From assembly GCA_030656575.1 (NCBI GenBank), contig JAUSPO010000157.1, positions 1 through 46,435 on the forward strand: a stretch of 46,435 bases of DNA, written 5' to 3'. Shown piece after piece: positions 15,504-36,768 of this stretch (the stretch's first letter is position 1; each line of letters begins with the position of its first letter). The translations under genes were made by a program, and so were the position numbers. Below the pieces are notes generated by a model. The model ran no database searches and was not told the origin of the DNA. It was given only the letters and a program-made list of their open reading frames with translations. The DNA comes from Bacillota bacterium (lineage in GTDB: Bacteria; Bacillota; Dethiobacteria; DTU022; UBA8154).

Positions 15504-16523
15504 TTATTTAATCCAACCTTTTTCTTGATAATACTTTAATGCACCGGGATGGAAGGGAACACCTAAATCTACAGCAAGATCTTCAGGTATAACATCCTTC
15601 ATCGCCGGATTTACTTCTTTAACAAAATCAAAATTTTCTACCAATACTTTTGTCATTTCATATATAAGATCTTCAGGCATAGATCTGTGAACTGCTATCG
15701 ATATAGTAGTTGCTAACGTTGGTATATCCTGATCAACACCCCTATAACCTCCTCCTTTAAGAATTGAAGGAACTAATGCAGGGCGCAACTTACGAATAGC
15801 TTCTACTTCCCCTGGAGTAAAGCCTATAAAGCTTACATCTCTTGCCATGGCTGCATCTACAAAAAGTGCATAGGGCATAGATGTTACCAAATGAATGGCA
15901 TCAATTCTACCATTCTTAAATTCCTCAACTAAATCTGCAAATCCCGCATGGACTATCTCCACCTTATTGATGTCTACACCCAATGCCTCAAATATAACTC
16001 TTGAGGTAGTTTCAGGGGTACCACCTCTAGGACCCACACCAAGTCTCTTCCCTACCAAATCTTGTATACTATTAATTCCTCCATCTTTATTTACCATGAA
16101 CTGCACATGCCGAGGCATAACACTTGCCAGAAGAAAAACATCTTCTGTCTTACTGGTAAAAGGTTCTCTTCCCGCATAACCATCCTGCAAACCAAGACCA
16201 GTGGGTAGTCCCATTTCTGCCTTTCCTTCTTCAACACCCATTACACAAGCTAATCCAGCTCCTGGCAAAACAGAGATGGTGTCAATTTGAGGGATATGCT
16301 TTTCCCAATTATTAACTAATCTTACGGCTAATGGATATAGGTCTCCTGATGGTTCCCCTGCCATAAAATCCAGTGAATACTTCTCAATTTGTTTTTCCTG
16401 TTTCGTTTGTTCATCCTGTTTTGTTGGGGCAGTGGATGATGAACAACCAAACATTGACATCAATAATAAGACTATGATTACTAGTACTAAAATTTGAACT
16501 TTATTTTTTAATAAATTTGACAT
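15504..16523 (-). CDS. TAXI-family TRAP transporter solute-binding lipoprotein
   Basis: 339 residues. The N-terminus is a lipoprotein signal: a basic start, a ~17-residue hydrophobic core and a lipobox ending MFGC at Cys27. It is followed by a Ser/Thr/Lys/Gln/Glu linker and a TAXI-type binding domain (FMAGEPSGDLYPLA, VLPGAGLACVMGVEEGKAEMGL, VGPRGGTPETTSR). TAXI proteins bind dicarboxylates, glutamate or other organic acids and feed TRAP permeases. The ATG overlaps the permease stop (TAAATG), and AAAGGAGG lies inside the end of the permease gene, so the two are translationally coupled. It would be anchored outside the membrane. The substrate is presumably the acid degraded by the neighbouring decarboxylase genes (inference). 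Confidence 0.92.
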   Translation of the reverse strand: MSNLLKNKVQILVLVIIVLLLMSMFGCSSSTAPTKQDEQTKQEKQIEKYSLDFMAGEPSGDLYPLAVRLVNNWEKHIPQIDTISVLPGAGLACVMGVEEGKAEMGLPTGLGLQDGYAGREPFTSKTEDVFLLASVMPRHVQFMVNKDGGINSIQDLVGKRLGVGPRGGTPETTSRVIFEALGVDINKVEIVHAGFADLVEEFKNGRIDAIHLVTSMPYALFVDAAMARDVSFIGFTPGEVEAIRKLRPALVPSILKGGGYRGVDQDIPTLATTISIAVHRSMPEDLIYEMTKVLVENFDFVKEVNPAMKDVIPEDLAVDLGVPFHPGALKYYQEKGWIK

Positions 16524-18434
16524 TTAAAAAGCCTCCTTTAATTGATTAGTTTTTTTACTATAATACAGATTAATGGCTAAACCTAAACAACCTAATGTCA
16601 CCCCCCCAACATCTGTTATTAATCCTGGGAATATTAGCAACACCCCCCCCCCCATACAAAAGAACTGTGAAATCCATGACATCCGAACAAATGCATATTT
16701 GCTTAAACCACAGGTTACAAGAGAAACTCCAAGAAAGGCCGTTATAGATGACATAATAATATTTGCCGGCGTGTCCAATAATAATAAGCCAGGAGCCAAT
16801 ACAAACATAAAAGGAACAATGTATGCAGAAAAACCTAACTTACTTGCAGTTACAGCAGTTTGAATAGGATTACTTCCTGCCAAACCAGCAGCAGCATAAG
16901 CAACTAATGCTACCGGGGGAGTGATAACAGCAATAGATGCAAAATACATGACAAATATATGTGCTAAAAATGCAATCTGATTTCCTGCCAAGTGGCTGAT
17001 ACCTAAGGTCACAGCTTCTGCCTGAAGCACTTTACTTAATGCTGGTATAGTAATTGCAACCTGGAGAATATAGGAAGCAGATGCTGGCAATCCCATCCCC
17101 AGGATCAAGGTAAGTAGCATTGTAAGTAAAAGTAATACAAAAAGATTTTGCCCCGAAACTTCAATGATTAGATTTCCCATTCTAAGCCCTAGACCGGTTA
17201 AAGAAAAAATACCACTAATCATCCCAGCCGTAGCCAAGCTAGAACCAACTACCAGAGAACTTAAAGCTCCTTCTTTTAAACCGTCTAAAATATCATTAAA
17301 TCCTATCCGTGTAAGTCGTGAGAAAAAAGAAACCAGAATCGTAGATAACAAGCTATAAAAGCAGGAAAACATGGGTGAAAAGCCTCTTATGAGCAAATAT
17401 AGCAGTACTAAAATTGGTATAAGTAAATGAAATCTAATTTTTAACTCTTTTTTCCAATCTGGGACTTCCTCTTTTTTCAACCCTTTTAATCCTAGCTTTA
17501 CAGCTTCCAGGTGGACGGCCAATCCTATGCCCCAATAATATAGTAAGGCAGGAATTAATGCATAAGCAGCAATACGAATATATGGAATGCCTGTATATTC
17601 GGCCATCATAAAGGCCACAACTCCCATTAGAGGCGGCATAATTTGACCCCCTGTTGATGCTACAGCTTCAACAGCACCCGCAAAATGAGGAGAATATCCT
17701 AATTTTTTCATCATTGGAATGGTAAAGGAACCGGTGATTAATACATTAGAAATTGGACTGCCACTAATGGCGCCCATTAAACCACTAGCTACAACTGCAA
17801 TTTTAGCTGGCCCACCTGTGGTTCTCCCGGTTAATCCTGAAGCTACGTTCATGAAAAGTTCACCTAAACCAACTTTAACCAAAAAAGAACCAAAAAGTAT
17901 AAAAAGAAAGACGTAAGTGGCAGAAACACCAAGAGGCATTCCAAAAACACCACCTGTAGTTAGGTATTGAATATCAAGTAGCAAATCAATACTATATCCA
18001 CGATGTCTTAATATACCTGGTAGAAAGGGACCTAAAAAAGCATAAGAAAACATCAATAGAGCTACAATAGGCAGTATTATGCCTATTGTTCGCCTTGTTG
18101 CTTCCAATACAACTACTACAAATACTATCCCCAGGATTATTTGGAGACCCGTAAGAGGGGTAACGTAACAAAATCGCTCGTAAACTAAGTAACTATAATT
18201 TAAGAAAATATAACCTATAGACAATACCGCTAATGTTAATGGTAACAAAACCTTAATATTATCTACTATTTTTAGATAGTTATATTTTTCATTACTAATC
18301 AATATTACTAGGATTACAATGAAAAATAGGTGAATGGAGCGTTGTAATAACGGGTCCATAACACCAAATATAACTGTATATAGATGAAAAACACTCATGC
18401 AAATGGCAATAATTCTTATAAGCCTTTTAAACAA
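16524..18434 (-). CDS. TRAP transporter permease, fused small and large membrane subunits (DctQM type)
   Basis: About 636 residues and some 16-18 hydrophobic segments. An N-terminal four-helix (DctQ-like) portion is fused to the large DctM-like portion, with GLMGAISGSPISNVLITGSFTIPMM and GMGLPASASYIL motifs. This is the form that usually partners TAXI binding proteins. It uses an ion gradient to import organic acids. The frame opens at TTG 18449, but GGGAGG within that stretch places the better start at TTG 18434, 7 bases away. A run of eleven G on the coding strand (16643-16653) encodes consecutive glycines near residue ~600 and could be prone to slippage. It is co-transcribed with the TAXI gene and perhaps with the genes upstream. 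Confidence 0.92.
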   Translation of the reverse strand: MFKRLIRIIAICMSVFHLYTVIFGVMDPLLQRSIHLFFIVILVILISNEKYNYLKIVDNIKVLLPLTLAVLSIGYIFLNYSYLVYERFCYVTPLTGLQIILGIVFVVVVLEATRRTIGIILPIVALLMFSYAFLGPFLPGILRHRGYSIDLLLDIQYLTTGGVFGMPLGVSATYVFLFILFGSFLVKVGLGELFMNVASGLTGRTTGGPAKIAVVASGLMGAISGSPISNVLITGSFTIPMMKKLGYSPHFAGAVEAVASTGGQIMPPLMGVVAFMMAEYTGIPYIRIAAYALIPALLYYWGIGLAVHLEAVKLGLKGLKKEEVPDWKKELKIRFHLLIPILVLLYLLIRGFSPMFSCFYSLLSTILVSFFSRLTRIGFNDILDGLKEGALSSLVVGSSLATAGMISGIFSLTGLGLRMGNLIIEVSGQNLFVLLLLTMLLTLILGMGLPASASYILQVAITIPALSKVLQAEAVTLGISHLAGNQIAFLAHIFVMYFASIAVITPPVALVAYAAAGLAGSNPIQTAVTASKLGFSAYIVPFMFVLAPGLLLLDTPANIIMSSITAFLGVSLVTCGLSKYAFVRMSWISQFFCMGGGVLLIFPGLITDVGGVTLGCLGLAINLYYSKKTNQLKEAF

Positions 18435-18496
18435 TGTTATCCCTCCCAACTATTGACTCTCCAGATTTACCCATTCAAATTCATCTCTAAACAATA

Positions 18497-18778: not shown

Positions 18779-18844
18779 ATTCTATTTTGTGTTGTTTCCA
18801 GAAAAAGCAACACAAAATGGTAGATTGTGATGAATTGTTATCGG

Positions 18845-19838: not shown

Positions 19839-21290
19839 CTATTTTAATAAATATCCAAACTTCTCCATGGTCTTTTTCTTACGTTCGGGGCTGGGAATAT
19901 TAACCACAGGGAAGTCATCTTTCCAATCGTACGGCTTGGTGGCATCAATAATAGCCCGGGAGTTCCAAAGTCTTCCTTTATCTTTATCTTCCGGACTAAT
20001 CCGTGGATCAAGTGGAGTACTCCATGCCCGATGAATAATATCAATAGAAGTAGCCGGATCCGAGCGTGTACACATTGCCCACATCAACTCTTCAAGGTTA
20101 CTTACATCCACATCATCATCAACTACAACTACATAACGGCCACAATATGCACCTATATGACACTGGGAAGCCACATGGCCTGCCTGCATTGCATGTCCGG
20201 GATAGCGCTGTTTTATAGCTACTGCTGTTAGTAAACGAGAACCACCTACTTCGTGACACCAAACAGCTTTTACATCTGGAATACCCGCTGTTTCCATCTG
20301 TTCTTTTAATAAAGGTGAACGAATAATAGCCCTGAAAAAAGCTTGCTCATCAGGTGGGCAGTTAGGGGGGCATGCTAAAATAATCGGGTTATTTCGATGA
20401 TAGACAGCCTTAATCTCAACACGTGGCTCTTGATGAAAACCACTACCATAGTACCCGGTCCATTCCCCAAACGGGCCTTCTGTTTTTAAGTCATCATAAT
20501 AAGCAAAACCCTCTAGAACTATCTCTGCATCAACAGGAATGGGCAGTCCGGTAATCTGTCCTTTTATTACTTTGTAAGGCTCACCCCTTACTCCTCCTGC
20601 CCAATCATATTCGCAAAGTTCATAAGGAAGTTCAGTACAACCCGCCCAAAAAAGCAAAGGATCTCCTCCTACTACTATAGCTAAAGGACAAGGCTCTTTT
20701 CGGGCAAAATATTTATCACGATGCATACGGCCATGTTTACCTGGAGATATATAGAAGCCTACATGCTTTTCATCATGAACCATTACACGGTAGGTTCCTA
20801 AGTTGACCCAACCGTTATCCGGATCACGAGTAATATCATAACTACCCGTGCCGATATAACGACCACCATCATGTTCATGCCATATTGGAGATGGAAACTC
20901 TAAAAGGTTTATCTCATCATCTAAGTGTACATTTTCCAAAATTGGCCCATTGTCTACATATTGTGGTGGAATAGGTTTACATTTTTTAAATTTTTTAGAT
21001 AGTGCCATACTTAAGTCTAATTTGTTCAGATCCTTTGGTAGGCCTGCAGTAATACCCAACCTTTTCTCGCTTCTTAAAGCATTAACCAATACTCTATAGC
21101 CCGCTGGATAATCACTTATTTCGTCAAAAAGTACCGCTGGACTACCTTCCACTTGATGAAGCATTTCAGTAGCCATACCTATATCTTCCTGCCATGTAGC
21201 ACCTTTAACAATTTTTAACTCTCCAACTTCTTGAACCATCTCTAACCAATCACGAAGATCTCTGTAACTTACTTTCCATTCATCTGACAT
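19839..21290 (-). CDS. ubiD: UbiD-family prenyl-FMN-dependent decarboxylase (UbiD1)
   Basis: 483 residues, normal UbiD length. The prFMN/active-site signature is complete: Arg168 (GTYRVMV) and the E-x4-E pair Glu271 and Glu276 (EGPFGEWTGYY), spaced as in fungal Fdc1 (R173, E277, E282). The family removes or adds CO2 on aromatic or alpha,beta-unsaturated acids in the cytoplasm and needs prFMN from UbiX; a ubiX gene lies at 31.4 kb. It is very similar along its whole length to UbiD2, so the two are recent paralogues. The frame extends to 21428, but GGGAGG 7 bases before the ATG at 21290 and alignment with UbiD2 settle the start. It may lead a unit with the QueG-like, MoaD-like and TRAP genes. 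Confidence 0.93.
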   Translation of the reverse strand: MSDEWKVSYRDLRDWLEMVQEVGELKIVKGATWQEDIGMATEMLHQVEGSPAVLFDEISDYPAGYRVLVNALRSEKRLGITAGLPKDLNKLDLSMALSKKFKKCKPIPPQYVDNGPILENVHLDDEINLLEFPSPIWHEHDGGRYIGTGSYDITRDPDNGWVNLGTYRVMVHDEKHVGFYISPGKHGRMHRDKYFARKEPCPLAIVVGGDPLLFWAGCTELPYELCEYDWAGGVRGEPYKVIKGQITGLPIPVDAEIVLEGFAYYDDLKTEGPFGEWTGYYGSGFHQEPRVEIKAVYHRNNPIILACPPNCPPDEQAFFRAIIRSPLLKEQMETAGIPDVKAVWCHEVGGSRLLTAVAIKQRYPGHAMQAGHVASQCHIGAYCGRYVVVVDDDVDVSNLEELMWAMCTRSDPATSIDIIHRAWSTPLDPRISPEDKDKGRLWNSRAIIDATKPYDWKDDFPVVNIPSPERKKKTMEKFGYLLK

Positions 21291-21731
21291 TGTTAAGCCT
21301 CCCTTGTCTATTAATATTGTTAAAAAAAGTTCCATAGGATTGTACGAACTAATTTTGCCTGAAATTTTATCATTTTTATTCGATAATCCTTTGGTCTCTG
21401 TTATCTCAAAAAGCGTAACACAAAACAAACATATATAAAAATATTTGAGTTATAAAAGAACAACCTTATCGCAAAATAATTATATATTTTAATTTGATTT
21501 AATTAAATAGCAATATTTTGTCTTTTTAATCTTCTTTGCTGAAAATCTCTTTCTCATAGAAAACCAACATGCACAAGCAAACTCAATGAAGCTATTAATC
21601 CAAATTATAAGTAAACGAGATAATCCATGTCTTAACAATGGGGGGCAAAAAAGATTCACAAATCTTCCTCTTGATCAAAATACGGTTTAAACAATACATT
21701 GATTCAATACATTTATCCTTATATTTAACCT
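21291..21731. other. 441-base intergenic region upstream of UbiD1
   Basis: A+T-rich stretch between araC and UbiD1. I find the UbiD1 ribosome binding site and a short hairpin with T-run after araC (21645-21667), but no -24/-12 promoter of the kind seen elsewhere in this cluster. UbiD1 is therefore probably driven by another sigma factor, possibly with the adjacent AraC-type protein. Confidence 0.4.
21645..21667 (-). terminator. Weak terminator after the AraC-type gene
   Basis: On the minus strand AAGATT-TGTG-AATCTT is followed by a run of T. The stem is only 6 bp, so efficiency is doubtful. Confidence 0.4.
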
Positions 21732-22442
21732 TTAATTTAATTGGAAACTCTGCGCAAACTGTCGCGGGGTATTTCCTACTACCTTTTTAAATACTTTTAT
21801 AAAATAACTGACATCATTGTAACCAAGCATATAAGCCACTTCCTCTAAACTGCGGTTATTTTCTAACAATAATTTTTGAGCTTTATTTATGCGTACCTTT
21901 GTAAGGTAATCTTGAAATGTATAACCCGACACCTCGGAAAACAAACGACTAAAATAACATGGACTTAGAAATACATAACCAGCCACCTCGTCGAGGGTAA
22001 TAGGATTCTGTAAATTGGAGTTAACGTATGCTTTTGCCTTCATGACTATTTCATATTTACACGATTTTCTTTTTTTTGATCTATTATTAAAAAGTATCAG
22101 GATGTAGCCACGTAGAACTTCACGAATCTCCTTAATTGAATCGGCCTGCATCAGTATTTTTGCATAACCTAAATTAGCATTGAATAAATCCCCTACATCC
22201 ACACCTATTTGAATACTTTTTCGTATTAGGAATACAGTTAAATGTAATACACAAGTTTTAATATAGTTCAGTTCCTGACCATTATTTTTAATCAACTCAG
22301 ATAAAAAGCATTCGCCACTAAAATAGGCGCTAGATAAGTTTCGTGATATAATAGCTTCTAATAGATCAGCTTCCTGCTTAAAAGGATAAATACAACTTTT
22401 TTCTTTGTAGACATACAGTTCATTTATTTTACCCTTTTGCAT
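21732..22442 (-). CDS. AraC-family transcriptional regulator
   Basis: 236 residues. The last ~100 form the double helix-turn-helix of AraC proteins: ITLDEVAGYVFLSPCYFSRLFSEVSG for the first motif and SLEEVAYMLGYNDVSYFIKVFKKVVGNTPRQF for the second. The N-terminal half is mostly helical, with Cys residues near its start, and resembles no sugar-binding cupin; it could be the remnant of a PocR-type sensor domain (uncertain). It lies between two UbiD paralogues and probably regulates one or both. The ATG at 22442 follows a run of eight G (22448-22455) that acts as the Shine-Dalgarno sequence, so replication slippage there could alter spacing and expression. Confidence 0.9.
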   Translation of the reverse strand: MQKGKINELYVYKEKSCIYPFKQEADLLEAIISRNLSSAYFSGECFLSELIKNNGQELNYIKTCVLHLTVFLIRKSIQIGVDVGDLFNANLGYAKILMQADSIKEIREVLRGYILILFNNRSKKRKSCKYEIVMKAKAYVNSNLQNPITLDEVAGYVFLSPCYFSRLFSEVSGYTFQDYLTKVRINKAQKLLLENNRSLEEVAYMLGYNDVSYFIKVFKKVVGNTPRQFAQSFQLN

Positions 22443-22470: not shown

Positions 22471-22500
22471 CAAAAAATCAGCTATTGCTTTTGATTTTTT
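22471..22500 (-). terminator. Rho-independent terminator after UbiD2
   Basis: AAAAAATCA (22472-22480) and TGATTTTTT (22492-22500) form a 9-bp stem overlapping the UbiD2 stop codon. On the minus strand the second arm supplies the T-run. It would separate UbiD2 from araC, at least partly. Confidence 0.5.
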
Positions 22501-23945
22501 TACTTTAACAAATACCCCCACTTATCCAAAGTCCTTTTTTTACGCTCGGGACTGGGTACGTTAACCATGGGAAATTCATCCTTCCAGTCGTAAGGCCTGG
22601 TAGCATCAATTATGGCTCGGGAATTCCACAGCCTGCCTTTTTCCTTATCTTCAGGACTGATACGGGGATCGAGATGAGTACTCCATGCACGATTAATGAT
22701 ATCAATAGAAGTAGCCGGATCTGAGCGAGTACACACTGCCCACATCAATTCATCGAGGTTGGTAACATCCACGTCCTCATCCACAACGATTACATAACGC
22801 CCGCAGTAAGCACCCACATGGCACTGGGAAGCTACATGTCCGGCCTGCATCGCATGCCCTGGATAGCGCTGCTTAATGGCAACCGCTAATAACAAACGGG
22901 AGCTTCCTGCTTCATGACCCCAAACAGCTTTAATGTCCGGAATACCTGCTTTTTCCATTTCTTCTTTGAGTAAGGGAGAACGCATAAAAGCACGGTAAAA
23001 GGCAATTTCATCAGGAGGCCGGTTAGGAGGGCAGCCCAAAATGATCGGATTATTACGGTGATAAACTGCCTTAACTTCAATTCTGGGTTCCTTGCGCGAA
23101 CCACTGGCATAATAACCGGTCCATTCTCCAAAGGGCCCTTCTTCTTTTAAGTCATCATAATGGGCAAAACCCTCCAAAACGATCTCTGCATCAGCGGGGA
23201 TCGGGAGTCCTGTATATTTTCCTTTTATTACCTTAAATGGTTCGCCACGTACTCCACCCGCCCAGTCATATTCACTCAGGCCGTATGGCAGTTCTGTGCA
23301 TCCGGCCAGATAAAGGAGGGGGTCACCTCCGACAACCACTGCTACAGGACAGGGTTCTTTACGATCGAAATATTTATCTCTGTGGATACGCCCGTGTTTA
23401 CCGGGTGATATATAGAAGAATACGTGTTTTTCGTCGTCTACCATCACCCGATAGGTGCCAAAATTAACCCATTTTTCATCCGGATCAATAGTTATATCAT
23501 AACTACCGGTCCCGATATAACGACCGCCATCAAATTCATGCCACATGGGAACTGGAAATTCCAATACATTTACATCATCACCTTCATGCACATTTTCCAA
23601 AATTGGGCCATCATCAACATATTGGGGTGGGATAGGTTTACTATTTTTAAATTTTCTGGCTATGGCTTCACTTAACCCCAGCTTTCCCAAACCCTGAGGC
23701 AGACCAGTTGCAATAGCAAGTCTTTGTTCAGTTCTTAAAGCGTTTACCAGGACTCTGTATCCTGAAGGGTAACCAGGGATATTGTCAAACAGAACCGCTG
23801 GACTGCCAGAAGTCTGGTGAAGCAGCTCTGCCGCCATACCTATATCTTCCTCCCAGGAAGCACCATCAACTACTTCTAATTCTCCGGCTTCTTTTACCAT
23901 TTCCAGAAACTCGCGAAGATCCTTATATGCAACTTTTTCAGACAT
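22500..23945 (-). CDS. ubiD: UbiD-family prenyl-FMN-dependent decarboxylase (UbiD2)
   Basis: 481 residues with a complete active-site set: Arg166 in GTYRVMV, and Glu269 and Glu274 in EGPFGEWTGYY. It is collinear with UbiD1 with almost no gaps; most differences are conservative, and the C-terminal PSPERKK..GYLLK tail is shared. Such closely related copies either act on different isomers or form a dosage pair. The start ATG at 23945 follows AAGGAGG by 7 bases, which excludes the slightly longer TTG frame. It lies 12 bases downstream of the CodY-like regulator, so the two are co-transcribed. Both UbiD1 and UbiD2 look like free-acid decarboxylases or carboxylases by motif; the substrate is unknown. 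Confidence 0.93.
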   Translation of the reverse strand: MSEKVAYKDLREFLEMVKEAGELEVVDGASWEEDIGMAAELLHQTSGSPAVLFDNIPGYPSGYRVLVNALRTEQRLAIATGLPQGLGKLGLSEAIARKFKNSKPIPPQYVDDGPILENVHEGDDVNVLEFPVPMWHEFDGGRYIGTGSYDITIDPDEKWVNFGTYRVMVDDEKHVFFYISPGKHGRIHRDKYFDRKEPCPVAVVVGGDPLLYLAGCTELPYGLSEYDWAGGVRGEPFKVIKGKYTGLPIPADAEIVLEGFAHYDDLKEEGPFGEWTGYYASGSRKEPRIEVKAVYHRNNPIILGCPPNRPPDEIAFYRAFMRSPLLKEEMEKAGIPDIKAVWGHEAGSSRLLLAVAIKQRYPGHAMQAGHVASQCHVGAYCGRYVIVVDEDVDVTNLDELMWAVCTRSDPATSIDIINRAWSTHLDPRISPEDKEKGRLWNSRAIIDATRPYDWKDEFPMVNVPSPERKKRTLDKWGYLLK

Positions 23946-23957
23946 AAACAATCCTCC

Positions 23958-24770
23958 TTAACTGTTAGATCTTTGATTTTTATTTAACATATCTTTTACA
24001 ATGGAATCAAAATTTTTCTGAAGATATGAATCTGTAATCCTGATAATGCTCCCCTTAGAACCTAAGGAACGATGTTCAATAATCCCTGCGCTCTGAAGCA
24101 GCTTCAGCGTTCGAGTTATTACCGGAGGTGAAATATTATTTTGATCTGCCATAGCTTTTATATTAGTTTTTATTGTGAATTTATCTGTTTCGAAATTTTG
24201 AAGTATAAGAAAGAAAAATTTTTCTCCGGAATAGCTCAGATTGTTGAGGACAGATTGTAGTTTCAGTTTGTTTCGTGCATCTTCATTTTTTTCTTTTTCC
24301 AATATTGAAACAAAATTCCTATTTAAGAATATAGCAATTATTTCGGATAAATAAATATTTTCTTTTGCTAGGGGCTCTTCAAAGTTAACTATAAGTAAAT
24401 GCCCAATCAGTTCATTTCCCCTGTAGAAAGGAATATTCTTAACGTGTTTAAAATTTTTACAGAAGTAATCATTTTTAAAAAGGCATTCTTTAACTACTGC
24501 ATGATTACCATTACTAAAGCAATAGGGTTTTATCAATGCCAATTTTTGCTTGGCAAGGCTGCATTCATAATAAGAAGGGCAGGATTTAGAAGCAATTAAT
24601 TTACCCTTACAATCTACAATAAAAATGGATACATCGAGCATGACTCCCAGTTCTGCTAAGATATTGTCAAGGTTATTGCCAGCAGATAACTGGAACAATC
24701 TTAAAATCTCCCTTACCCGGGGAAGCAGCACTATACTTCCAAGTTCCAAATCAATCTGCTTTACTATCAT
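23958..24770 (-). CDS. CodY-like transcriptional regulator
   Basis: 270 residues, close to CodY (259). The N-terminal part fits a GAF-type sensor (DVSIFIVDCKGKLIASKS). The C-terminal ~75 residues match the CodY winged helix: LSYSGEKFFFLIL, then VITRTLKLLQSAGIIEHRSL and GSKGSIIRI, against the LSYSELEAI and [20 protein letters not shown] pattern of CodY. Six Cys occur between residues ~54 and ~112, hinting at a metal or redox-sensitive sensor. Housekeeping CodY senses GTP and branched-chain amino acids and sits with xerC-hslVU. This copy sits in a catabolic cluster directly upstream of UbiD2, so it is probably a pathway-specific paralogue (inference). Confidence 0.8.
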   Translation of the reverse strand: MIVKQIDLELGSIVLLPRVREILRLFQLSAGNNLDNILAELGVMLDVSIFIVDCKGKLIASKSCPSYYECSLAKQKLALIKPYCFSNGNHAVVKECLFKNDYFCKNFKHVKNIPFYRGNELIGHLLIVNFEEPLAKENIYLSEIIAIFLNRNFVSILEKEKNEDARNKLKLQSVLNNLSYSGEKFFFLILQNFETDKFTIKTNIKAMADQNNISPPVITRTLKLLQSAGIIEHRSLGSKGSIIRITDSYLQKNFDSIVKDMLNKNQRSNS

Positions 24771-26877: not shown

Positions 26878-26910
26878 GACACTTCCTCCTCGCAAACTAT
26901 GGCAACTGTC

Positions 26911-28162: not shown

Positions 28163-29425
28163 TTAAATTATTCCGGACTGTTTCATAATTCGAAGATCTT
28201 CGTTGTTAAAACCAAGTTCTTCAAAAATTTCTTCATTGTGCTCTCCGATCAAGGGCGCACGACGACGAATTCCGCAGGAAGCGTCAGAAAACTTGCAGAA
28301 ACCTCCTGGATAGGTAATTTCCGTCCCCAGTTCAGGATGCTCCACTTTCTGCCAGTATTCTCTGGCAGTAAGCTGGGGGTCTTCAAAAATTTCTTCAGCT
28401 GTAGCCACAGGATAACCTAACATCCGTCTTTTTATTGCTTCCTTAAAAAACTCTTTCTTAGTTTTTGTTTTAAAAAATTTTGCAGCAGGTGATTCTATCT
28501 GATCGATATCCTCTTGTGTAACAGTTGCAATATCAAAAGTACTCCAATCCTTGTTTTTAAGGTAGTCGGTAGCCATATCCTCTTCATTCATCCATTCCGT
28601 AAGGGCCTTATTGGTGATCCGCCCTGCCGGTCCACCATATACAATGAAGTTGATATAACCGTCCTTACATTCATATATAGTGCGCATCTTTGCACCTGTA
28701 ACACTGCGCCCGCTCATAATAGGGCCTTCTCGTGTAGGAATGACCCGGTTTACATCCCAGAAAGTGGGAGCATGGGCTAAAGTACAGAGCATGCTGGCCT
28801 GGGCGGAAACATCCACATGCTGACCCTTCCCTGTACTGCCGCGATAATAATGGGCCAACAGTGTACCAGCCGCTGCCTGCATTCCTGTCCACATATAGGA
28901 TTGTGGAACTGATACCCGTATCGGCGGCCTGTCAGGGTACCCCGCCAAAGACATCATGCCGCACATGGCCATAGTTATGAGATCAGATGCCTGATAATGA
29001 CTGTAAGGACCTGTCTGACCAAAAGGAGAAATGGATGTTAAAATTACCTGAGGGTTTATTTGTTTTAACTGTTCATATCCCAGCCCCAGTCCTTCAAGAT
29101 AACCAGGAGGAAAAGATTCAATCACAAAATCAGCAGTTTTTACAAGACGGCAAAATATATCTCTTCCAGTTTTCTCCTCCAGGTTAAGTGTAATGCCGCG
29201 TTTATTGTTATTATAGGCGAACCAGTAAAGACTTTTTTCATTGTCAGGCTGATCTTTAAAAAATGGTCCAAAGTTTCGTGCCTGATCACCGCCAGGTTTC
29301 TCAACCTTAATAACGTCTGCCCCCAAATCGCCGAGGATCTTTCCACATAAAAATCCATTTTCATTTGTTAAATCGAGGGCGCGAAAGGCTCCAAGCATCC
29401 AGTTTTCTTCATTTGTAAAGCTCAT
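28163..29425 (-). CDS. Class III CoA-transferase family subunit lacking the catalytic Asp
   Basis: 420 residues of the CaiB/BaiF family: RALDLTNENGFLCGKILGDLGADVIKVEKPGG, SFPPGYLEGLGLGYEQL, SPFGQTGPYSHYQASD, TGKGQHVDVSA. Alignment to the neighbouring subunit with no gaps between GYPD and TGKGQ puts Tyr177 where the nucleophilic Asp should be, so this chain alone should not catalyse classical transfer. It probably supplies structural or substrate-binding surfaces to a heteromer with the 26911-28128 product. The frame extends to 29485, but a ribosome binding site (AAGGA, 9-base spacing) favours the ATG at 29425. It lies 34 bases upstream of its partner and ~75 bases downstream of UbiD3. Confidence 0.88.
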   Translation of the reverse strand: MSFTNEENWMLGAFRALDLTNENGFLCGKILGDLGADVIKVEKPGGDQARNFGPFFKDQPDNEKSLYWFAYNNNKRGITLNLEEKTGRDIFCRLVKTADFVIESFPPGYLEGLGLGYEQLKQINPQVILTSISPFGQTGPYSHYQASDLITMAMCGMMSLAGYPDRPPIRVSVPQSYMWTGMQAAAGTLLAHYYRGSTGKGQHVDVSAQASMLCTLAHAPTFWDVNRVIPTREGPIMSGRSVTGAKMRTIYECKDGYINFIVYGGPAGRITNKALTEWMNEEDMATDYLKNKDWSTFDIATVTQEDIDQIESPAAKFFKTKTKKEFFKEAIKRRMLGYPVATAEEIFEDPQLTAREYWQKVEHPELGTEITYPGGFCKFSDASCGIRRRAPLIGEHNEEIFEELGFNNEDLRIMKQSGII

Positions 29426-29499
29426 ATACAGCCATCCTTTCCTTAAGTGGTAAAGGGATGTAATGGAGGACAGGAAGTCCTCCATCTACTTTTTTGATA

Positions 29500-31185: not shown

Positions 31186-31203
31186 ATGCAAGTTCTATAC
31201 CAA
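31186..31203 (-). promoter_or_regulatory. Sigma-54 type promoter of the UbiD3-CoA-transferase-sucCD operon
   Basis: The complement reads TTGGTATAGAACTTGCAT: TGG at -24 and TTGCA at -12, with GG and GC separated by exactly 10 bases. It agrees at 14 of 18 positions with the promoter upstream of the Fe-S subunit gene (34760-34777), which strengthens both calls. Confidence 0.65.
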
Positions 31204-31272: not shown

Positions 31273-31288
31273 GTTTCATTTATGAAAC
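31273..31288. promoter_or_regulatory. Candidate enhancer palindrome upstream of UbiD3
   Basis: GTTTCATTTATGAAAC is a perfect 7-base inverted repeat around TT, 70-87 bases upstream of the -24 element. It carries the TGAAAC half-site also found upstream of the alcohol dehydrogenase promoter. It is a likely binding site for the PrpR-type activator. Confidence 0.5.
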
Positions 31289-31420: not shown

Positions 31421-32008
31421 TCACCCCCTGCAGCTTATTTTTATTTTTTCTTCAACACCTTGCCAGCGGGAAAAAAGATTATGGTCAATATCGAATTGGT
31501 CCAGCACTTTTCCTACAGTCTGATTAATAAGATCCTGCATTGTTTGCGGATGATTATAAAATGCAGGCATTGGCGGTAAGAGTATACCACCTGCTTCAGT
31601 CACCATTGTCATTAAACGCAGGTGCCCTAAATGAAGGGGAGTCTCTCTTACCAGTAATACCAGCTTTCTTCTTTCTTTAAGGACAACATCGGCAGCTCTT
31701 ATCAAAAGATTTGTATTAAATGAGTTGGCTATGGCTGAAAGGGTTTTTATGGCGCATGGAGCAATAATCATTCCGCTTGTTTTAAAAGAACCGCTGGAGA
31801 TGGAAGCCCCGATATTATTGATATCGTGGACTTCCGCAGCCATTTTCTCCACTTCTTCGACTTCATAATTTGTTTCAAGTTGGATCGTTCTTTTGCTGGC
31901 TTCTGAAATAATTAAATGGGTCTCAATTTCAAGCTCATGTAATATTTCCAACATTTTTATACCATAAATTGCACCTGTAGCACCGGAAATTCCTACAACA
32001 ATTCTCAA
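31421..32008 (-). CDS. ubiX: UbiX-family flavin prenyltransferase
   Basis: About 195 residues. The Rossmann-like N-terminus RIVVGISGATGAIYGIKML, the central ISSGSFKTSGMIIAPCAIKTLSAIANSF and VLLVRETPLHLGHLRLM are diagnostic of UbiX/Pad1, which prenylates FMN with dimethylallyl phosphate to make the cofactor of UbiD enzymes. It should serve the three UbiDs of the cluster. A GTG at 32017 would overlap its own ribosome binding site; the TTG at 32008, 8 bases after AAGGGGG, gives the usual UbiX N-terminus. It lies ~50 bases downstream of the flavoprotein gene and is probably the last gene of that operon. Confidence 0.93.
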   Translation of the reverse strand: MRIVVGISGATGAIYGIKMLEILHELEIETHLIISEASKRTIQLETNYEVEEVEKMAAEVHDINNIGASISSGSFKTSGMIIAPCAIKTLSAIANSFNTNLLIRAADVVLKERRKLVLLVRETPLHLGHLRLMTMVTEAGGILLPPMPAFYNHPQTMQDLINQTVGKVLDQFDIDHNLFSRWQGVEEKIKISCRG

Positions 32009-32056
32009 GTTTGTCACCCCCTTGCTTGCGGAAGATTTAAAATAATATAAATAATA

Positions 32057-33724
32057 TCACGCAAGATACATGCCATTTTGTCCGAAATCTTTTGACGACC
32101 CACAAAAAGTTTGCATTTCCGGAACTTCACGGTGGGTATAATTGGGTAGAAGAAGGGGGGAAATCCTGCCCCCTGTATCTATACCATTATTTTCCAGCTG
32201 GCAGTGATAATTGTGAACATGATTAAGAGTTAGCTTTTTTAGTTTTACTTCCTGACACTTCTGCGCAGCATGAGAACCGGTACGGCATCCAAACACAAGG
32301 ATATCGAGAAGCGAGTTCCCCATAAGCCTGTTACGGCCATGCACACCTCCGGAGTTTTCACCTGCAACGTAAAGGTTCTCAATATTCGTTCGACCGTTAT
32401 CATCAAGCAAAAGACCACCATTTTGATAATGAAGAGTAGGATAAATAAGTATGGGCTCCCTGCGAATATCAAGGCCAAACCGTTTAAACTGCCTAATTAT
32501 GGCCGGAAACCGTTTCTCAATAGTCCCTTCACCATGAATCAGATCGATAAGAGGGGAATCAAGCCAGATACCTACCGTACCTGTTGGAGTGGCAATGCCA
32601 AGCTTCCTTTCGCTGCACTCCCTGATAATAGCGGCAGACTGCAAATCCCTTGTCTCTAAGTGATAAACAAACTGTTTACCGTTAATATTGACCAGTTTAG
32701 CACCAAGCCCGCGGAATTTTTCTGTAACCAGCATGCCCAGAATCTCGGAAGGATAAGCCACACCTGTAGGATGGTACTGGATAGCATCCATAAATGCCAT
32801 CCTGGCACCAGCACGATAACCCATTACTAACCCGTCGGCTGTCGCACCATAATGGTTGGTAGTGGGAAAACCCTGGAAATGAAGTCTCCCTGAACCACCT
32901 GTACTTAAAATTACCGTTTTAGCACGAGCGACAAGATACTCTTCCGTTTCCAGATTGTAAAGAATTGCTCCTGCAGCTTTGCCTTCTTCGTCCAGCAGAA
33001 GTTCCACTGCGGGACAATACTCCAGAATTTTAATACCCTTGTTAATAGTTTCATCTCTTAAGGTGCGCATAATCTCCACCCCTGTATAATCACGGGCGCT
33101 ATGCATCCTTCTTCTGGAGGTACCACCGCCGTGGAAAGTAATCATTGTGCCATCTTCTTCTTTATCGAACATAATGCCAATGTCTTCCAGCCATTTAATG
33201 ATTTTGGGAGCATCATTAACTAAGGCATAAACCAATTCAGGTATGTTAGCAAAATGTCCTCCACCCATAACATCGAGGTAATGGATTGCAGGTGAATCGT
33301 TCGTTTTATCAGCAGCTTGTATACCACCTTGTGCCATCATTGTATTGGCGTCACCAAAGCGCAGCTTAGTAACAAGAGCAACATCCGCTCCCTGCTCCTG
33401 CGCCATAAGAGCGGCCGCAGCACCAGCTCCCCCCCCGCCAATAATTAGAACATCCACATCGCAGACAATTTCGCTCAGGTCAAGTTCAATATGTTCTATC
33501 ATACTGCGAGCTTCAAGAAGATCAGCCAGTTCCCGGGGAACCCTATCCCCCTTATTTACTCCTACCTGGAGCTCCCGGAAACCCTCTTCAATAAAATCAG
33601 GATGAAATTTTTTAAGCAGATCCTGACCTTCTTCAGTAGTAATGCGGGGGAAATCAACGCCCAGCCTCATAGGTCGCGTTTCTTCAACTTTTTTAATCAG
33701 CTCCTTCATTTGAGAAGTATACAT
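32057..33724 (-). CDS. Fumarate reductase/succinate dehydrogenase-like flavoprotein subunit
   Basis: 555 residues. An ~85-residue N-terminal extension precedes the FAD-binding VDVLIIGGGGAGAAAALMA. The covalent-flavin/active-site family features follow: DANTMMAQGGIQ, HSARDYTGVEIMRTLRD, QYHPTG, and RNRLMGNSLLDILVFG near the C-terminus. The family interconverts fumarate and succinate or reduces related enoates. With the Fe-S subunit upstream and no membrane anchor gene nearby, it is probably a soluble complex. It may feed the succinate/succinyl-CoA cycle of the CoA-transferases or reduce/oxidise a pathway intermediate (inference). No strong ribosome binding site is seen at 33724; MKELIKK six codons inside is an alternative start. 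Confidence 0.88.
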   Translation of the reverse strand: MYTSQMKELIKKVEETRPMRLGVDFPRITTEEGQDLLKKFHPDFIEEGFRELQVGVNKGDRVPRELADLLEARSMIEHIELDLSEIVCDVDVLIIGGGGAGAAAALMAQEQGADVALVTKLRFGDANTMMAQGGIQAADKTNDSPAIHYLDVMGGGHFANIPELVYALVNDAPKIIKWLEDIGIMFDKEEDGTMITFHGGGTSRRRMHSARDYTGVEIMRTLRDETINKGIKILEYCPAVELLLDEEGKAAGAILYNLETEEYLVARAKTVILSTGGSGRLHFQGFPTTNHYGATADGLVMGYRAGARMAFMDAIQYHPTGVAYPSEILGMLVTEKFRGLGAKLVNINGKQFVYHLETRDLQSAAIIRECSERKLGIATPTGTVGIWLDSPLIDLIHGEGTIEKRFPAIIRQFKRFGLDIRREPILIYPTLHYQNGGLLLDDNGRTNIENLYVAGENSGGVHGRNRLMGNSLLDILVFGCRTGSHAAQKCQEVKLKKLTLNHVHNYHCQLENNGIDTGGRISPLLLPNYTHREVPEMQTFCGSSKDFGQNGMYLA

Positions 33725-33827
33725 AATGTCTGTTCCGGAGGAAGAACCGGATTTAAACCTCCCTTTAACTTTTTTAAAATTTCAATGGCAAGCAGCAGTT
33801 ATAAAGGTTTTTAAAAAAGCAGGCAGG

Positions 33828-34508
33828 TTATGCTTCAATGTCCCGGCTGTAATAATGATTATTTAGCTCCTGAATGTCCAGTTTCATTAGCCGCTGCAGT
33901 TCAGTCTCATATTTCCCGCCTTGAATCTCATCAACCCTTTGCTGCAATTGCAGATCCCTGGGTAATAGGTATTTGCCAAAAAGGCGACGGGCCAAAATCC
34001 CGACATTGTACTGGGCTATTTGTGCCGGACAACGGTATGCGCAGAGGCCGCACATGATACAGTCAAAGGATTCAAATGCACATCCGGCAATATCCCCCTT
34101 CCGCGCATATGCAATATACTGCTTGACATTAATGTTTTGGGGACATACCTTGGTACAGGAATTGCATCCTATACATCGGTAGATTTCCGGGTAATAGGCT
34201 TTAATAGATGAAGCGCTGGGGGGTAAATTATCAATATTATAAATTCCTTTTAATGGGGGATAAAATGGAATTTGCGCAAGGTGCATCCCAGACTCTACCC
34301 TGATCTGACAGGCCAGGCCAACCTTGAATTCATGATCGCCGGCTATACGGTAAACCGTAGCGCAGGCACCGCAAATTCCGGTTCGGCAGCCGCAGCCTCG
34401 TTTTAACTGGTAACCGGCAAACTCCATTGCACGCATGATAGTTAACGATTCAGGTACGGCATATTTCTTGCCCATGATATAAATATCGATTAATGATTCC
34501 TGAGGCAT
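33828..34508 (-). CDS. Fumarate reductase-like iron-sulfur subunit
   Basis: 226 residues. An N-terminal [2Fe-2S] ferredoxin domain (CGCRTGICGACATV, then LAC) is followed by two Cx2Cx2Cx3CP sets (CIGCNSCTKVCP and CIMCGLCAYRCP), each suited to a [4Fe-4S] cluster, where classical SdhB/FrdB has one 4Fe and one 3Fe centre. A basic C-terminal region follows. It would carry electrons to or from the flavoprotein encoded ~100 bases downstream. The open frame begins at TTG 34535, but AAGGAG 10 bases before the ATG at 34508 favours that start. It is the first gene after a sigma-54 type promoter, with an unusually long ~240-base leader. Confidence 0.87.
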   Translation of the reverse strand: MPQESLIDIYIMGKKYAVPESLTIMRAMEFAGYQLKRGCGCRTGICGACATVYRIAGDHEFKVGLACQIRVESGMHLAQIPFYPPLKGIYNIDNLPPSASSIKAYYPEIYRCIGCNSCTKVCPQNINVKQYIAYARKGDIAGCAFESFDCIMCGLCAYRCPAQIAQYNVGILARRLFGKYLLPRDLQLQQRVDEIQGGKYETELQRLMKLDIQELNNHYYSRDIEA

Positions 34509-34620
34509 ATCTTTCGAACTCCTTAAAACCTTCAATTTTATGCTTAAAATTAATAAACGAAAGAATTTAATTAAATATCGTAACTACTCAGAGTAAAGCA
34601 TTAGCAAGAAATGGGACCTG

Positions 34621-34698
34621 AGACATGGGGACGGTTCGAGCGTCACCGCAGCGTAGCGGAGGTCCGCCAGGGAAGACGATGGAACCGTCCCCATGTCT
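34621..34698. repeat. Palindromic GGGGACGGTTC repeat element, copy 1
   Basis: The arms 34621-34637 (AGACATGGGGACGGTTC) and 34682-34698 are perfectly complementary over 17 bases, enclosing GAGCGTCACCGCAGCGTAGC and related sequence. The same arm core and the GTGACGCT/GCTACG inner motifs recur at 37789-37974, marking a dispersed repeat family. This copy lies in the leader of the Fe-S subunit transcript. Confidence 0.75.
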
Positions 34699-34759
34699 TG
34701 CGTAGCGAAAAGCAGAAGGTAAAATGGAAACTGTTGGTCTGAGTAGTTACTAAATATTT

Positions 34760-34777
34760 ATGCAAAATACATACCAA
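34760..34777 (-). promoter_or_regulatory. Sigma-54 type promoter of the Fe-S subunit-flavoprotein-ubiX operon
   Basis: The complement reads TTGGTATGTATTTTGCAT, with GG and GC 10 bases apart and TTGCAT at -12. It is closely matched to the UbiD3 promoter. It fires away from the adjacent activator gene. Confidence 0.62.
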
Positions 34778-34824
34778 TCTACGGTAAATAGTTTATAATA
34801 AATTTGAAAGGTGGAGGGCTAAGT

Positions 34825-36768
34825 ATGGCTATCGAAATCTGTTTCATTTCTCCATACCCGGAACTCACCCGGGCAATCGAAGAAATTCTTCCCAGCTTAC
34901 CTGAAAAAGTGTTATTGGAAGAAGGGGCTATTGAACAGGCCGAGCCAATAATAGAAAAGGTTGAAAAGCAGGGAGTGGAAGTAATAATTACCACTGAAGG
35001 TAATGTCAGGCACCTGCGAAAAGTATTTGATATTCCTTTAATAGCCATTCCTGTAAGTGTTTTTGATACTGTCTTCGCCCTTAACCAGGCAAAAAAACTC
35101 TTTGGAGAACCCCTAGCTTTGTTTGAATTTCGTTCTCCCAATCCCCGCTTTCATGAAATCAAAGAGGTTATAGATGTTAAAATGGAACAATTTGTTTACC
35201 TAAATGAACAGGATGGCCTGGCAAAGCTGAAAGAAGCCCAAAAAAGGGGTTTTAAAGCTGCTGTCAGCGGAGGAGTTATTGCCCGTATGGCCCGTTCGCA
35301 GGGTTACCCCTGTATTCCCATTATTCCCATCACTGTAGGTAAAGATGCCATCATAAAAGCTTATTCCCACGCTAAAGAAGTAGCCTGGGCGAGACAAAAA
35401 GAACGTCGGGATGCTTTCAAATTAAAAGCTATTGTAGATTACTCCTTTGAAGGGATCATCACCGTAAATGCTCAAAATATAATAACCGTTTTTAACCCAA
35501 TAGCTGAAAAGATTTTAGAAATGAAAGCAAATGAAGTTATAGGAAAACCTATGGATTACATAGTTTCTGCTAATCGCATCCAACCACATATAATAGAAAC
35601 GGATAAAATATGTAATTTTAAAACAAAACAAGTACTCGTTAACAAAGTACCGATTTATGACCACGGCCAGATAGTAGGTTCTATTTTTGCTTTTCATGAA
35701 GTTAACCGCATCCAGTCCATGGAGGAAAAAATACGACGTGCCAATCATGAAAACAAATTATATGCCATATATCATTTTGAGAATATCATCGGTAAAAGCA
35801 GAATATTTTTTGAGACAATCCGCCAAGCCAAAAAATATGCCCATACTGATGAGACCGTATTGATTACGGGAGAAACAGGGACTGGAAAGGAGCTTTTTGC
35901 TCAGAGTATTCATAATGAGAGCAGCAGATCCTCACACTCTTTTGTTGCCGTAAATTGTGCCGCACTGTCTCCCGCACTCCTGGAAAGCGAATTATTCGGC
36001 TATGCCGAGGGAGCGTTCACGGGCGCAAAGAAAGGCGGCAAAAAAGGCCTGTTCGAATTGGCTCATCGCGGTTCTATTCTCCTTGATGAGATCGGTGAGA
36101 TTTCCCTTGATGTTCAATCCAAGCTGTTAAGAGTGCTGCAGCAAAGGGAAGTCATGCGCATTGGTGATAATAAACTTATTCCAGTCGATGTACGTGTTAT
36201 TTCGGCTACCAACCGTGATCTCTTAAAAGATGTGGAACAGGGCAAATTCCGCCGTGATCTTTACTATCGGCTTAATATTTTGAAATTAATCGTTCCGCCG
36301 TTAAGAGAAAGAAAAGAAGATATCCTTCCTTTGGCTTTTTACCTCTTAAGAAACACCACTAATGGCGAATCCGTTTCTTTGCTGGAAGAAACCTTAACTG
36401 AACATCGAGATTTATTTGAAGGATATGAATGGCCTGGCAATGTTCGAGAACTGGAAAACCTTATTAAACGGCTTAGTGTATTTGCTGACCCTGACTCCAC
36501 GGTTAAATCACTGGGTAATCACATAAAAAAAATCCTGACGGATTTTAAAGGAGAAACAAAGGAAAGAGAAAATGGCTTCATGCAAATTGAAGTAAACGAT
36601 GGCTTAAAAAAGACTATGGAGAGGATTGAAAATCAGTTAATTACCGAGGAGTACGTACGTTTGAAAGGAGATAAAACAAAATTAGCTCAAAGGTTGGGTA
36701 TCGGCCGAACTACTTTGTGGCGCAAGTTACATGAAGCAGGAATAGAAGCTGATATAAAAAGACCCTAA
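34825..36768 (+). CDS. PrpR-type sigma-54-dependent transcriptional activator
   Basis: 647 residues and the only plus-strand chromosomal gene apart from the IS remnant. Domains in order: a PrpR_N sensor (~1-195, as in propionate-catabolism regulators), a PAS domain (~205-310), a sigma-54 interaction AAA+ domain with GETGTGKE (Walker A), GAFTGA, and LLDEIGE (Walker B), and a C-terminal Fis-type helix-turn-helix (TKLAQRLGIGRTTLWRKL). The ATG at 34825 follows GGTGGAGGG; the TTG at 34804 is a worse start. It is transcribed divergently from a -24/-12 promoter, and two more such promoters lie in the cluster, so it is probably the activator of all three. The inducer may be the substrate or a CoA ester (inference). 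Confidence 0.93.
   Translation: MAIEICFISPYPELTRAIEEILPSLPEKVLLEEGAIEQAEPIIEKVEKQGVEVIITTEGNVRHLRKVFDIPLIAIPVSVFDTVFALNQAKKLFGEPLALFEFRSPNPRFHEIKEVIDVKMEQFVYLNEQDGLAKLKEAQKRGFKAAVSGGVIARMARSQGYPCIPIIPITVGKDAIIKAYSHAKEVAWARQKERRDAFKLKAIVDYSFEGIITVNAQNIITVFNPIAEKILEMKANEVIGKPMDYIVSANRIQPHIIETDKICNFKTKQVLVNKVPIYDHGQIVGSIFAFHEVNRIQSMEEKIRRANHENKLYAIYHFENIIGKSRIFFETIRQAKKYAHTDETVLITGETGTGKELFAQSIHNESSRSSHSFVAVNCAALSPALLESELFGYAEGAFTGAKKGGKKGLFELAHRGSILLDEIGEISLDVQSKLLRVLQQREVMRIGDNKLIPVDVRVISATNRDLLKDVEQGKFRRDLYYRLNILKLIVPPLRERKEDILPLAFYLLRNTTNGESVSLLEETLTEHRDLFEGYEWPGNVRELENLIKRLSVFADPDSTVKSLGNHIKKILTDFKGETKERENGFMQIEVNDGLKKTMERIENQLITEEYVRLKGDKTKLAQRLGIGRTTLWRKLHEAGIEADIKRP

Follow-up and report, generated by a model that had tools for sequence, protein, structure and literature searches.

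A candidate phthalate-type CoA-transfer and decarboxylation island with adjoining sucCD in a Bacillota bacterium

Which acid would a probable anaerobe of the phylum Bacillota break down with three UbiD-family genes, ubiX, paired class III coenzyme A (CoA)-transferases, and sucCD set side by side, and how would that acid be activated? The question is raised by contig JAUSPO010000157.1 of assembly GCA_030656575.1, of which we analyzed positions 1 to 46,435, referred to here as the window. A first-pass annotation, made from the letters alone, had read this cluster as following the logic of phthalate degradation in denitrifiers, i.e., CoA transfer to the acid and then decarboxylation by a UbiD-type enzyme with prenylated flavin mononucleotide (prFMN). 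Family scans found every gene of that annotation at its coordinates, including the UbiDs, ubiX, the transferases, sucCD, a fumarate-reductase-like pair, a TRAP/TAXI importer, and a PrpR-type activator (Table 1). Scripted translation gave no internal stop in any of 35 window genes, and the core reading frames (ubiD3-coaT2-coaT1-sucC-sucD, positions 31038 to 24891 on the minus strand) are intact. The proposed logic is supported by the nearest solved UbiD protein, by the top plasmid record, and by genes for benzoyl-CoA breakdown in the genome. Thus, the island is real and the earlier reading largely right; what is new is a variant of the phthalate CoA-transferase/decarboxylase system with its own predicted succinyl-CoA supply. 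We consider it likely that the island serves the anaerobic uptake, CoA activation, and decarboxylation of an aromatic dicarboxylic acid; ortho-phthalate, or an acid closely resembling it, is the most probable candidate. Below, G000 denotes the window's own genome and G010 that of a related genus, and L-numbers denote loci fetched elsewhere.

The decarboxylase gives the first part of the answer. UbiD3 is a full-length UbiD homologue whose nearest solved relative is phthaloyl-CoA decarboxylase (Pcd; PDB 8oz5, 8p02, and 8pmk), with 500 bits over residues 7 to 511 (E 5.8e-149); the next solved molecule, 3,4-dihydroxybenzoate decarboxylase, reached 170 bits (6e-49). This match settles the fold. Plasmid 2 of Aromatoleum aromaticum EbN1, at 47.3% identity, ranked first of the 394 plasmid records that gave a match. 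UbiD3 also has residues that are typical of Pcd relatives and lacking in other UbiDs: 108 positions are conserved to at least 95% across the two decarboxylase lineages described below (42 and 41 rows); of these, 54 are shared by less than half of the 10 other UbiDs compared, 14 of them by not a single one, and UbiD3 has all 54. Arg157 and Glu283 do not vary across the 85 rows of the tree set; because 80 loci were picked up with two alignment motifs, residues 279 to 286 and 395 to 402 are biased by selection. UbiD3 is probably a phthaloyl-CoA-decarboxylase-type enzyme, with decarboxylation as its predicted reaction. Pcd depends on prFMN, K+, and Fe2+ for its activity, and the ubiX gene of the window would provide for the first of these.

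The second part comes from the two class III CoA-transferase subunits that follow, CoA-T1 (T1) and CoA-T2 (T2). They are 49.1% and 46.3% identical, respectively, to the two CoA-transferases adjoining the EbN1 decarboxylase, and the EbN1 plasmid is the top record for both (of 1198 plasmid records for T1 and 1164 for T2). T1 carries Asp175, which we take to be the catalytic Asp of class III transferases, and T2 has a Tyr at the same place. The EbN1 pair is split likewise, and other T1 rows also have the Asp. T2 rows vary at this position: L052 and L066 have Glu, the T2-labelled L015 and L117 with Asp are long-branch transferases, and the Asp in five fused rows entered as T2 comes from their T1 half, which was the part aligned. 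These five loci (L048, L049, L091, L093, and L123), from Rokubacteria, alphaproteobacterial, and betaproteobacterial records with two phylum labels, have T2 and T1 fused in one in-frame open reading frame (ORF) of 798 to 826 amino acids. The Asp split and the fusions agree with a heteromeric enzyme in which one type of subunit is active. Moreover, the window subunits each score best on a different chain of benzylsuccinate CoA-transferase (PDB 9fn0), T2 on chain A with 237 bits and T1 on chain B with 262 bits. We have two adjacent class III subunits beside a pcd-type gene, and suggest that they would form a heteromeric CoA-transferase in which T1 is catalytic and T2 is not.

SucCD gives the third part. 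Besides the window, G010 and two deltaproteobacterial genomes (L068 and L078) have the run decarboxylase-T2-T1-SucC-SucD. The G010 operon is 74.5% (UbiD3), 76.3% (T2), 79% (T1), 78.5% (SucC), and 86.5% (SucD) identical to that of the window, while the run in L078 continues with ubiX-ubiD-cupin-cupin, every gap being 137 bases or less. We found one sucD copy in G000 and two in G010 (E 1e-60), and one in the L068 genome and two in the L078 genome (E 1e-40); because a second sucD lies elsewhere in both, the operon sucD is an extra copy in G010 and the L078 genome. In the SucD tree, the operon proteins of the window and G010 pair with each other (support 100) and not with the SucD copy that is usual in their order; those of L068 and L078 pair with support 98, apart from both the window/G010 pair and the usual copy. 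A single shared sucCD lineage thus found no support in this tree, which has 24 rows and no other deltaproteobacterial SucD. The simple reading, for which 24 rows are few, is that sucCD may have been recruited separately in the window's lineage and in that of L068 and L078. The position of sucCD beside the transferases is a real difference from known phthalate loci, and it means that activation would be ATP-driven.

Together, these parts suggest the following route. The diacid would be imported by the TAXI-TRAP carrier. SucCD would make succinyl-CoA from succinate, CoA, and ATP, and the heteromeric CoA-transferase would then pass CoA from succinyl-CoA to the diacid, freeing succinate for reuse by SucCD. 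UbiD3, with prFMN made by UbiX, would convert the aroyl-CoA to benzoyl-CoA, which would go on to a class II (BamB) reductase and ring cleavage encoded elsewhere in the genome. CoA transfer and SucCD would in effect amount to an ATP-dependent ligase that spends one phosphoanhydride bond of ATP, versus two for AMP-forming ligases.

Several genes for the last steps are found in G000. The ring-cleaving hydrolase BamA scored 568 bits against a cut-off of 464, as expected for a member of the pathway, and its contig also carries a 6-hydroxycyclohexene-carbonyl-CoA dehydrogenase (479 bits, cut-off 339), a BzdQ over cut-off, and a second activase-type gene. A 666-amino acid protein matched PDB 4z3w (chain name "benzoyl-CoA reductase, putative") with 817 bits versus 221 bits to AOR, in keeping with a reductase subunit; we take the 4z3w chain to be Geobacter BamB. 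A second BamB copy, 72% identical, is followed by a 182-amino acid protein, a CCG/4Fe-4S protein, and a 942-amino acid flavin/4Fe-4S protein, presumably the bamBCDE order. Among 13 AOR-family matches in this 3-Mb genome, two are of the BamB type. At E 1e-150, 26 of the 60 near relatives, own genome included, have such a gene. Neither bzdO nor bcrB was found over cut-off in G000, G010, or G018, a further near relative, and a gene pair on contig C67 was rejected as class I benzoyl-CoA reductase, its best score being to 2-hydroxyisocaproyl-CoA dehydratase and itself below cut-offs. Judged by these matches, the benzoyl-CoA reductase of G000 is most likely of class II.

How widely the module is kept was addressed by scanning a species-genome collection for the decarboxylase, from which 80 loci of at least 512 relatives were kept; many end at contig ends, and 24 of the 80 exceed 21 kb. 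Thresholds were at least 40% identity over at least half the length for transferases, 45% for UbiX, 30% for the TRAP permease, 50% for UbiD1/UbiD2-type proteins, 35% for FrdA, and 30% for FrdB. Both transferases are present in 33 loci, and in 32 of these the order decarboxylase-T2-T1 is kept on one strand (the exception is L083), a recurrence that argues for gene association beyond chance. These 33 loci, mostly from metagenome bins, fall under eight NCBI phylum labels, where a label is given, with labels such as Myxococcota for "Deltaproteobacteria bacterium" taken from record titles. Near the decarboxylase, we found UbiX in 18 of the 80 loci, UbiD1/UbiD2-type proteins in 16, the TRAP permease in 8, cupins in 2 (L073 and L078), and PrpR in 1; at the thresholds used, FrdA, FrdB, CodY, AOR, the 4Fe-4S protein, CDC48, and FeADH were found in none. 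In Syntrophorhabdus loci such as L053, a 513-amino acid ORF, by eye an AMP-forming ligase, lies between the decarboxylase and TAXI where the transferases would be, and L051 has a 515-amino acid ORF at the matching position. The EbN1 plasmid (L009) has a second decarboxylase copy ∼9 kb away, 100% identical over 467 columns to the transferase-adjoining copy. The decarboxylase is rare in the window's own phylum, being found in 2 of 398 sampled genomes (E 1e-110, own included); among 60 near relatives it occurs in 3 (E 1e-50, own included), i.e., also in G010 (75%) and G018 (43%).

Three groups of observations weigh against this route or against ortho-phthalate as its substrate. First, in a decarboxylase tree of 85 rows (a quick method with SH-aLRT support only and the outgroup on a very long branch), the EbN1 enzyme lies in a 43-row clade of Pseudomonadota, Actinomycetota, Acidobacteriota, and others. 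The UbiD3 proteins of the window and G010 group together (support 100) outside this clade (inner branch 0.89, support 100), with Bacillota, Chloroflexota, Rokubacteria, Acidobacteriota, and deltaproteobacterial rows as neighbors. The T1 and T2 trees likewise place the window proteins apart from the EbN1 pair; the T1 tree was built without the 550-amino acid L082 ORF, the class III transferases L063, L064, and L065, and L083_11008 (a T2), the T2 tree used the first 430 residues of fused rows, and loci with short or partial hits were in neither. Because UbiD3 falls outside the clade of characterized denitrifiers, we file it as a sister lineage and not as a proven Pcd, and regard ortho-phthalate as a probable substrate only. 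Placement, by which the first-pass annotation had proposed to judge its idea, came out in favor of that idea, UbiD3 and the transferases being nearest to Pcd and the EbN1 pair; that they form lineages of their own is a correction to it. Carriers of the decarboxylase also include Xanthobacter tagetidis (L099) and Amycolatopsis (L087), which we take to be aerobes and which have no transferases in the fetched stretch. Second, SucC and SucD together adjoin the decarboxylase in only 2 of the 80 loci, L068 and L078, and the operon sucD is not to be called dedicated in G000 and the L068 genome because it is the sole copy found. Third, the dienoyl-CoA hydratase candidate on the BamA contig of G000 is under its cut-off (167.6 versus 292.5 bits), and the class I bzdO beside the BamA genes is a remnant with stops (L033:8320-8586, contig C57). 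G010, with the operon at ∼75 to 86% identity, yielded neither a BamA over cut-off nor, at E 1e-150, a BamB from a genome that is ∼91% complete, and its bzdO remnant is frameshifted (L125, contig C21). On the side of the route, a BamA above its cut-off turned up in 15 of the 50 carrier genomes searched and in 0 of 14 controls; against it, the other 35 carriers showed none at that level. These 50 comprise the 33 with both transferases and 17, chosen by us, of the 47 without; since BamA was found in 8 of the 33 and 7 of the 17, it is no commoner with transferases and does not track them. In the L078 genome, two high-scoring BamA pieces on two contigs may be one split gene. Thus, many carriers lack the benzoyl-CoA pathway, are incomplete, or use the product otherwise. 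In G000, the bzdO remnant beside intact activase-type genes, together with intact BamB, looks like replacement of a class I reductase by class II.

The separate lineage of the window's decarboxylase and transferases could also mean that the same chemistry acts on another aromatic polycarboxylate, e.g., isophthalate, a hydroxyphthalate, or a benzene tricarboxylate, with UbiD1 and UbiD2 removing a further carboxyl group. In line with such a shift, 15 positions are differently fixed in at least 90% of each decarboxylase lineage, the window protein departing at four, and the decarboxylase-transferase module is spread under eight phylum labels. UbiD1 and UbiD2 themselves form a second UbiD group that recurs beside the decarboxylase, in the 16 loci counted above as well as on the EbN1 phthalate plasmid (Table 1), which is the sole record at 60% or more for UbiD2 among 421. 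In the 80 loci, they are 51 to 74% identical to the nearer companions and, in the contigs fetched, at most 37% to other UbiDs of their own genome. A literature search found no publication on PDB entry 7pda, the nearest solved chain to UbiD2. We suggest, with low confidence, that UbiD1 and UbiD2 might remove a further ring carboxyl group or act on a related acid. Two small cupin genes follow the UbiD1/UbiD2-type genes in L073 and L078, and a similar pair lies in the window after AOR at 10527-11600. A different substrate is, however, harder to square with three loci (L097, L106, and L111) that have an EbN1-lineage decarboxylase, yet transferases 59 to 67% identical to those of the window, with T2 of all three (support 80) and T1 of L097 and L111 (support 90) nearer the window. 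Because these loci mix lineages, decarboxylase and transferases have probably been re-paired, which fits one shared substrate. Moreover, in the parts of PMC8269228 available to us, sulfate reducers that degrade phthalic acid likewise have a Pcd in a clade of its own, and the isophthaloyl-CoA enzyme is given close relatives among phenolic acid decarboxylase C sequences. We therefore think another aromatic polycarboxylate unlikely, although worth keeping in view.

The substrates of UbiD enzymes at large also include unsaturated acids. The CoA-transferases and UbiD3 might accordingly serve a nonaromatic unsaturated di- or tricarboxylic acid, the product then being reduced by FrdAB; the transferases are somewhat similar to succinyl-CoA:mesaconate and succinate-glutarate enzymes, and frdBA adjoins ubiX and has a sigma-54-type site. 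However, all three core proteins are nearest to phthalate enzymes, and mesaconate and glutarate CoA-transferase models gave 175 to 222 bits on the window transferases against cut-offs of 700 to 750. We had no support for FrdAB as a core member, given its absence near the decarboxylase in the 80 loci; promoter motif and neighborhood are its only ties to the operon, and in G010 frdBA lies apart, on the other strand. The place of the fumarate-reductase pair in the pathway is, thus, doubtful, and we regard a nonaromatic substrate as very unlikely.

An aromatic dicarboxylic acid remains our preferred substrate, and the layout suggests how its operon would be switched on. In transcription order on the minus strand, frdB-frdA-ubiX is followed by a 382-base gap and ubiD3-coaT2-coaT1-sucC-sucD, with the PrpR-type activator divergent at the upstream end. 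The pattern TGGCACN5TTGCA with two mismatches gave 22 window sites versus 12.5 expected, so that weak sigma-54-type sites mean little. The looser TGGYAYN5TTGCA, set after viewing the plain-pattern sites, has four exact matches versus 0.14 expected, two intergenic (toward ubiD3 and frdB) and two inside genes. An independent look at G010 found a perfect TGGCACN5TTGCA in the same intergenic place before the decarboxylase and a one-mismatch site before frdB (9 sites in that scan versus 6.1 expected). A palindrome, GTTTC-N6-GAAAC, lies upstream of the sigma-54-type site in both the window and G010, and also before FeADH-AOR at 14977-14992; with one mismatch allowed, the window has four, a number reached in 9 of 100 shuffles, and the G010 stretch four (1 of 200 shuffles). 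The PrpR enhancer, as printed in the portion of PMC4987338 at hand, has the half-sites of this palindrome with a shorter spacer. These motifs suggest that the divergent PrpR-type sigma-54 activator probably switches the operon on. The local regulators first annotated as CodY, AraC, and PrpR are all present; the CodY-like protein, far under the CodY equivalog cut-off, is a CodY relative and not CodY, and had no counterpart in the 80 loci at the thresholds used. By eye, we also noted an inverted repeat (ggggacggttc ... gaaccgtcccc; 34615-34700) that sits between frdB and its sigma-54-type site and could be a small repeated element.

The genome assembly consists of 195 contigs, contamination stands at 3.36%, and both G000 and G010 carry a bzdO remnant; these facts would suit a decaying cluster or unrelated genes brought together by chance in a metagenome bin. 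Yet the core frames are intact, and operon and promoter-like site are kept in another genus. We consider decay or chance assembly highly improbable.

Beyond sucD, the minus strand continues with the CodY-like gene, UbiD2, the AraC-type gene, UbiD1, genes for a 4Fe-4S protein and a ThiS-like protein, the TRAP permease, and the TAXI binding protein. FeADH, AOR, and the two cupins (10527-14802), which lie still further along this strand, may also belong to the functional cluster. The window AOR (11748-13631) was rejected as BamB, with 386 bits to true AOR versus 168 to BamB. On the other side, beyond the PrpR-type activator, lie arginine genes, with a T-box leader upstream of the arginine cluster at 46169-46432 (95.6 bits).

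Table 1. Features of the island, in window coordinates
Feature	Position	Strand	Evidence or remark
TAXI solute-binding protein	15504..16523	-	TIGR02122, 210 bits
Fused TRAP permease	16524..18449	-	TIGR02123, 607.6 bits
UbiD1, same group as UbiD2	19839..21428	-	TIGR00148, over cut-off; 58.1% to UbiD of EbN1 phthalate plasmid
AraC-type regulator	21732..22442	-	HTH_18, 80 bits
UbiD2, second UbiD group	22500..23951	-	60.3% to UbiD of EbN1 phthalate plasmid; 7pda, 381 bits
CodY-like regulator	23958..24770	-	86 bits versus CodY equivalog cut-off 255
SucD, succinate-CoA ligase alpha	24891..25763	-	TIGR01019, 398.2 bits, over cut-off
SucC, ADP-forming succinate-CoA ligase beta	25741..26895	-	TIGR01016, 407.6 bits, and NF001913, 404 bits, both over cut-off
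CoA-T1, class III CoA-transferase subunit with Asp175, taken as catalytic	26911..28128	-	Family scan; EbN1 homologue
CoA-T2, class III CoA-transferase subunit without catalytic Asp	28163..29485	-	CoA_transf_3; EbN1 homologue
UbiD3, phthaloyl-CoA-decarboxylase-type UbiD protein, 512 amino acids	29500..31038	-	Pcd 8oz5/8pmk; EbN1 plasmid homologue
Sigma-54 -24/-12-type site upstream of ubiD3 operon, TGGTATAGAACTTGCA	31187..31202	-	Exact TGGYAYN5TTGCA
GTTTC-N6-GAAAC palindrome, candidate activator site	31273..31288	.	Motif chosen by eye
UbiX-type flavin prenyltransferase (prFMN supply)	31421..32017	-	NF004685 and TIGR00421, over cut-off
FrdA-like flavoprotein, 555 amino acids, pathway place doubtful	32057..33724	-	FAD_binding_2, 247 bits; aligns with SdhA and L-aspartate oxidase
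FrdB-like Fe-S protein, pathway place doubtful	33828..34535	-	Fer2 and 4Fe-4S domains
Sigma-54-type site upstream of frdB-frdA-ubiX	34761..34776	-	Exact TGGYAYN5TTGCA
PrpR-type sigma-54 activator	34804..36768	+	PrpR_N, 106 bits; Sigma54_activat, 230 bits

Phthalate is a breakdown product of plasticizers, and the wide spread of the decarboxylase family calls into question its origin with man-made phthalates. Tentatively, and as a speculation that goes beyond our data on the window, we suggest that the transferase/decarboxylase module, with its eight phylum labels, may be an old natural route for aromatic polycarboxylates, of which the phthalate pathway of denitrifiers would be one branch. The window's lineage and the deltaproteobacterial versions would have recruited sucCD separately, giving a third and cheaper phthalate activation, and the UbiD1/UbiD2 group, sometimes with two cupins, would strip further carboxyls and feed in tri- and polycarboxylates. 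This second UbiD group is, in any case, marked as a recurring partner whose substrate is to be sought. The operon also provides a concrete candidate, with defined genes, for phthalate breakdown in such anaerobes, the phthalate-isomer pathway of syntrophic Pelotomaculum being called unknown in the passages of PMC9516798 that we draw on. A literature search combining phthalate, succinyl-CoA synthetase, and benzoyl-CoA found no paper.

Among known systems, benzylsuccinate CoA-transferase resembles the window enzyme in having two subunits; the window transferases are nearer the EbN1 pair (tblastn, 319 bits for T2 and 374 for T1), although the programs differ and the figures are not strictly comparable. 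The EbN1 phthalate locus (NC_006824) is closest to the window. Its order is ubiX-pcd-coaT2-coaT1 ... TAXI-TRAP, with the same transferase residue pattern, and that region of the plasmid also encodes a member of the UbiD1/UbiD2 group. The first-pass annotation had held that the window goes beyond known phthalate loci; this is true of sucCD, but not of the extra UbiDs, UbiX, or TRAP/TAXI, which have counterparts on the EbN1 plasmid. The loci differ in that the three core proteins are 46 to 49% identical and of separate lineages, and no sucCD is among the 18 annotated features of the EbN1 stretch shown, a gene table that may be incomplete. Unlike the EbN1 locus, the window has a sigma-54 activator adjoining the operon and belongs to a genome with a predicted class II benzoyl-CoA reductase. 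A 2026 review (PMC13040137), in the sections available to us, lists EbN1 among organisms with an experimentally shown succinyl-CoA:phthalate CoA-transferase and assigns the CoA-transferase route to facultative denitrifiers and ligases to the obligate anaerobes Desulfosarcina cetonica and Syntrophorhabdus; the Syntrophorhabdus isophthalate ligase yields AMP and pyrophosphate according to the portion of PMC9516798 seen. As described in these excerpts, the phthalate-CoA ligase of D. cetonica and the isophthalate-CoA ligase of Syntrophorhabdus share with our route a thioester made at the expense of ATP and a UbiD-type decarboxylase leading to benzoyl-CoA. Among the matches listed for 20 window proteins scanned (15504-40636), there was no other CoA ligase family. 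Thus, where these obligate anaerobes use a CoA ligase, the window has a predicted CoA-transferase together with an ADP-forming SucCD.

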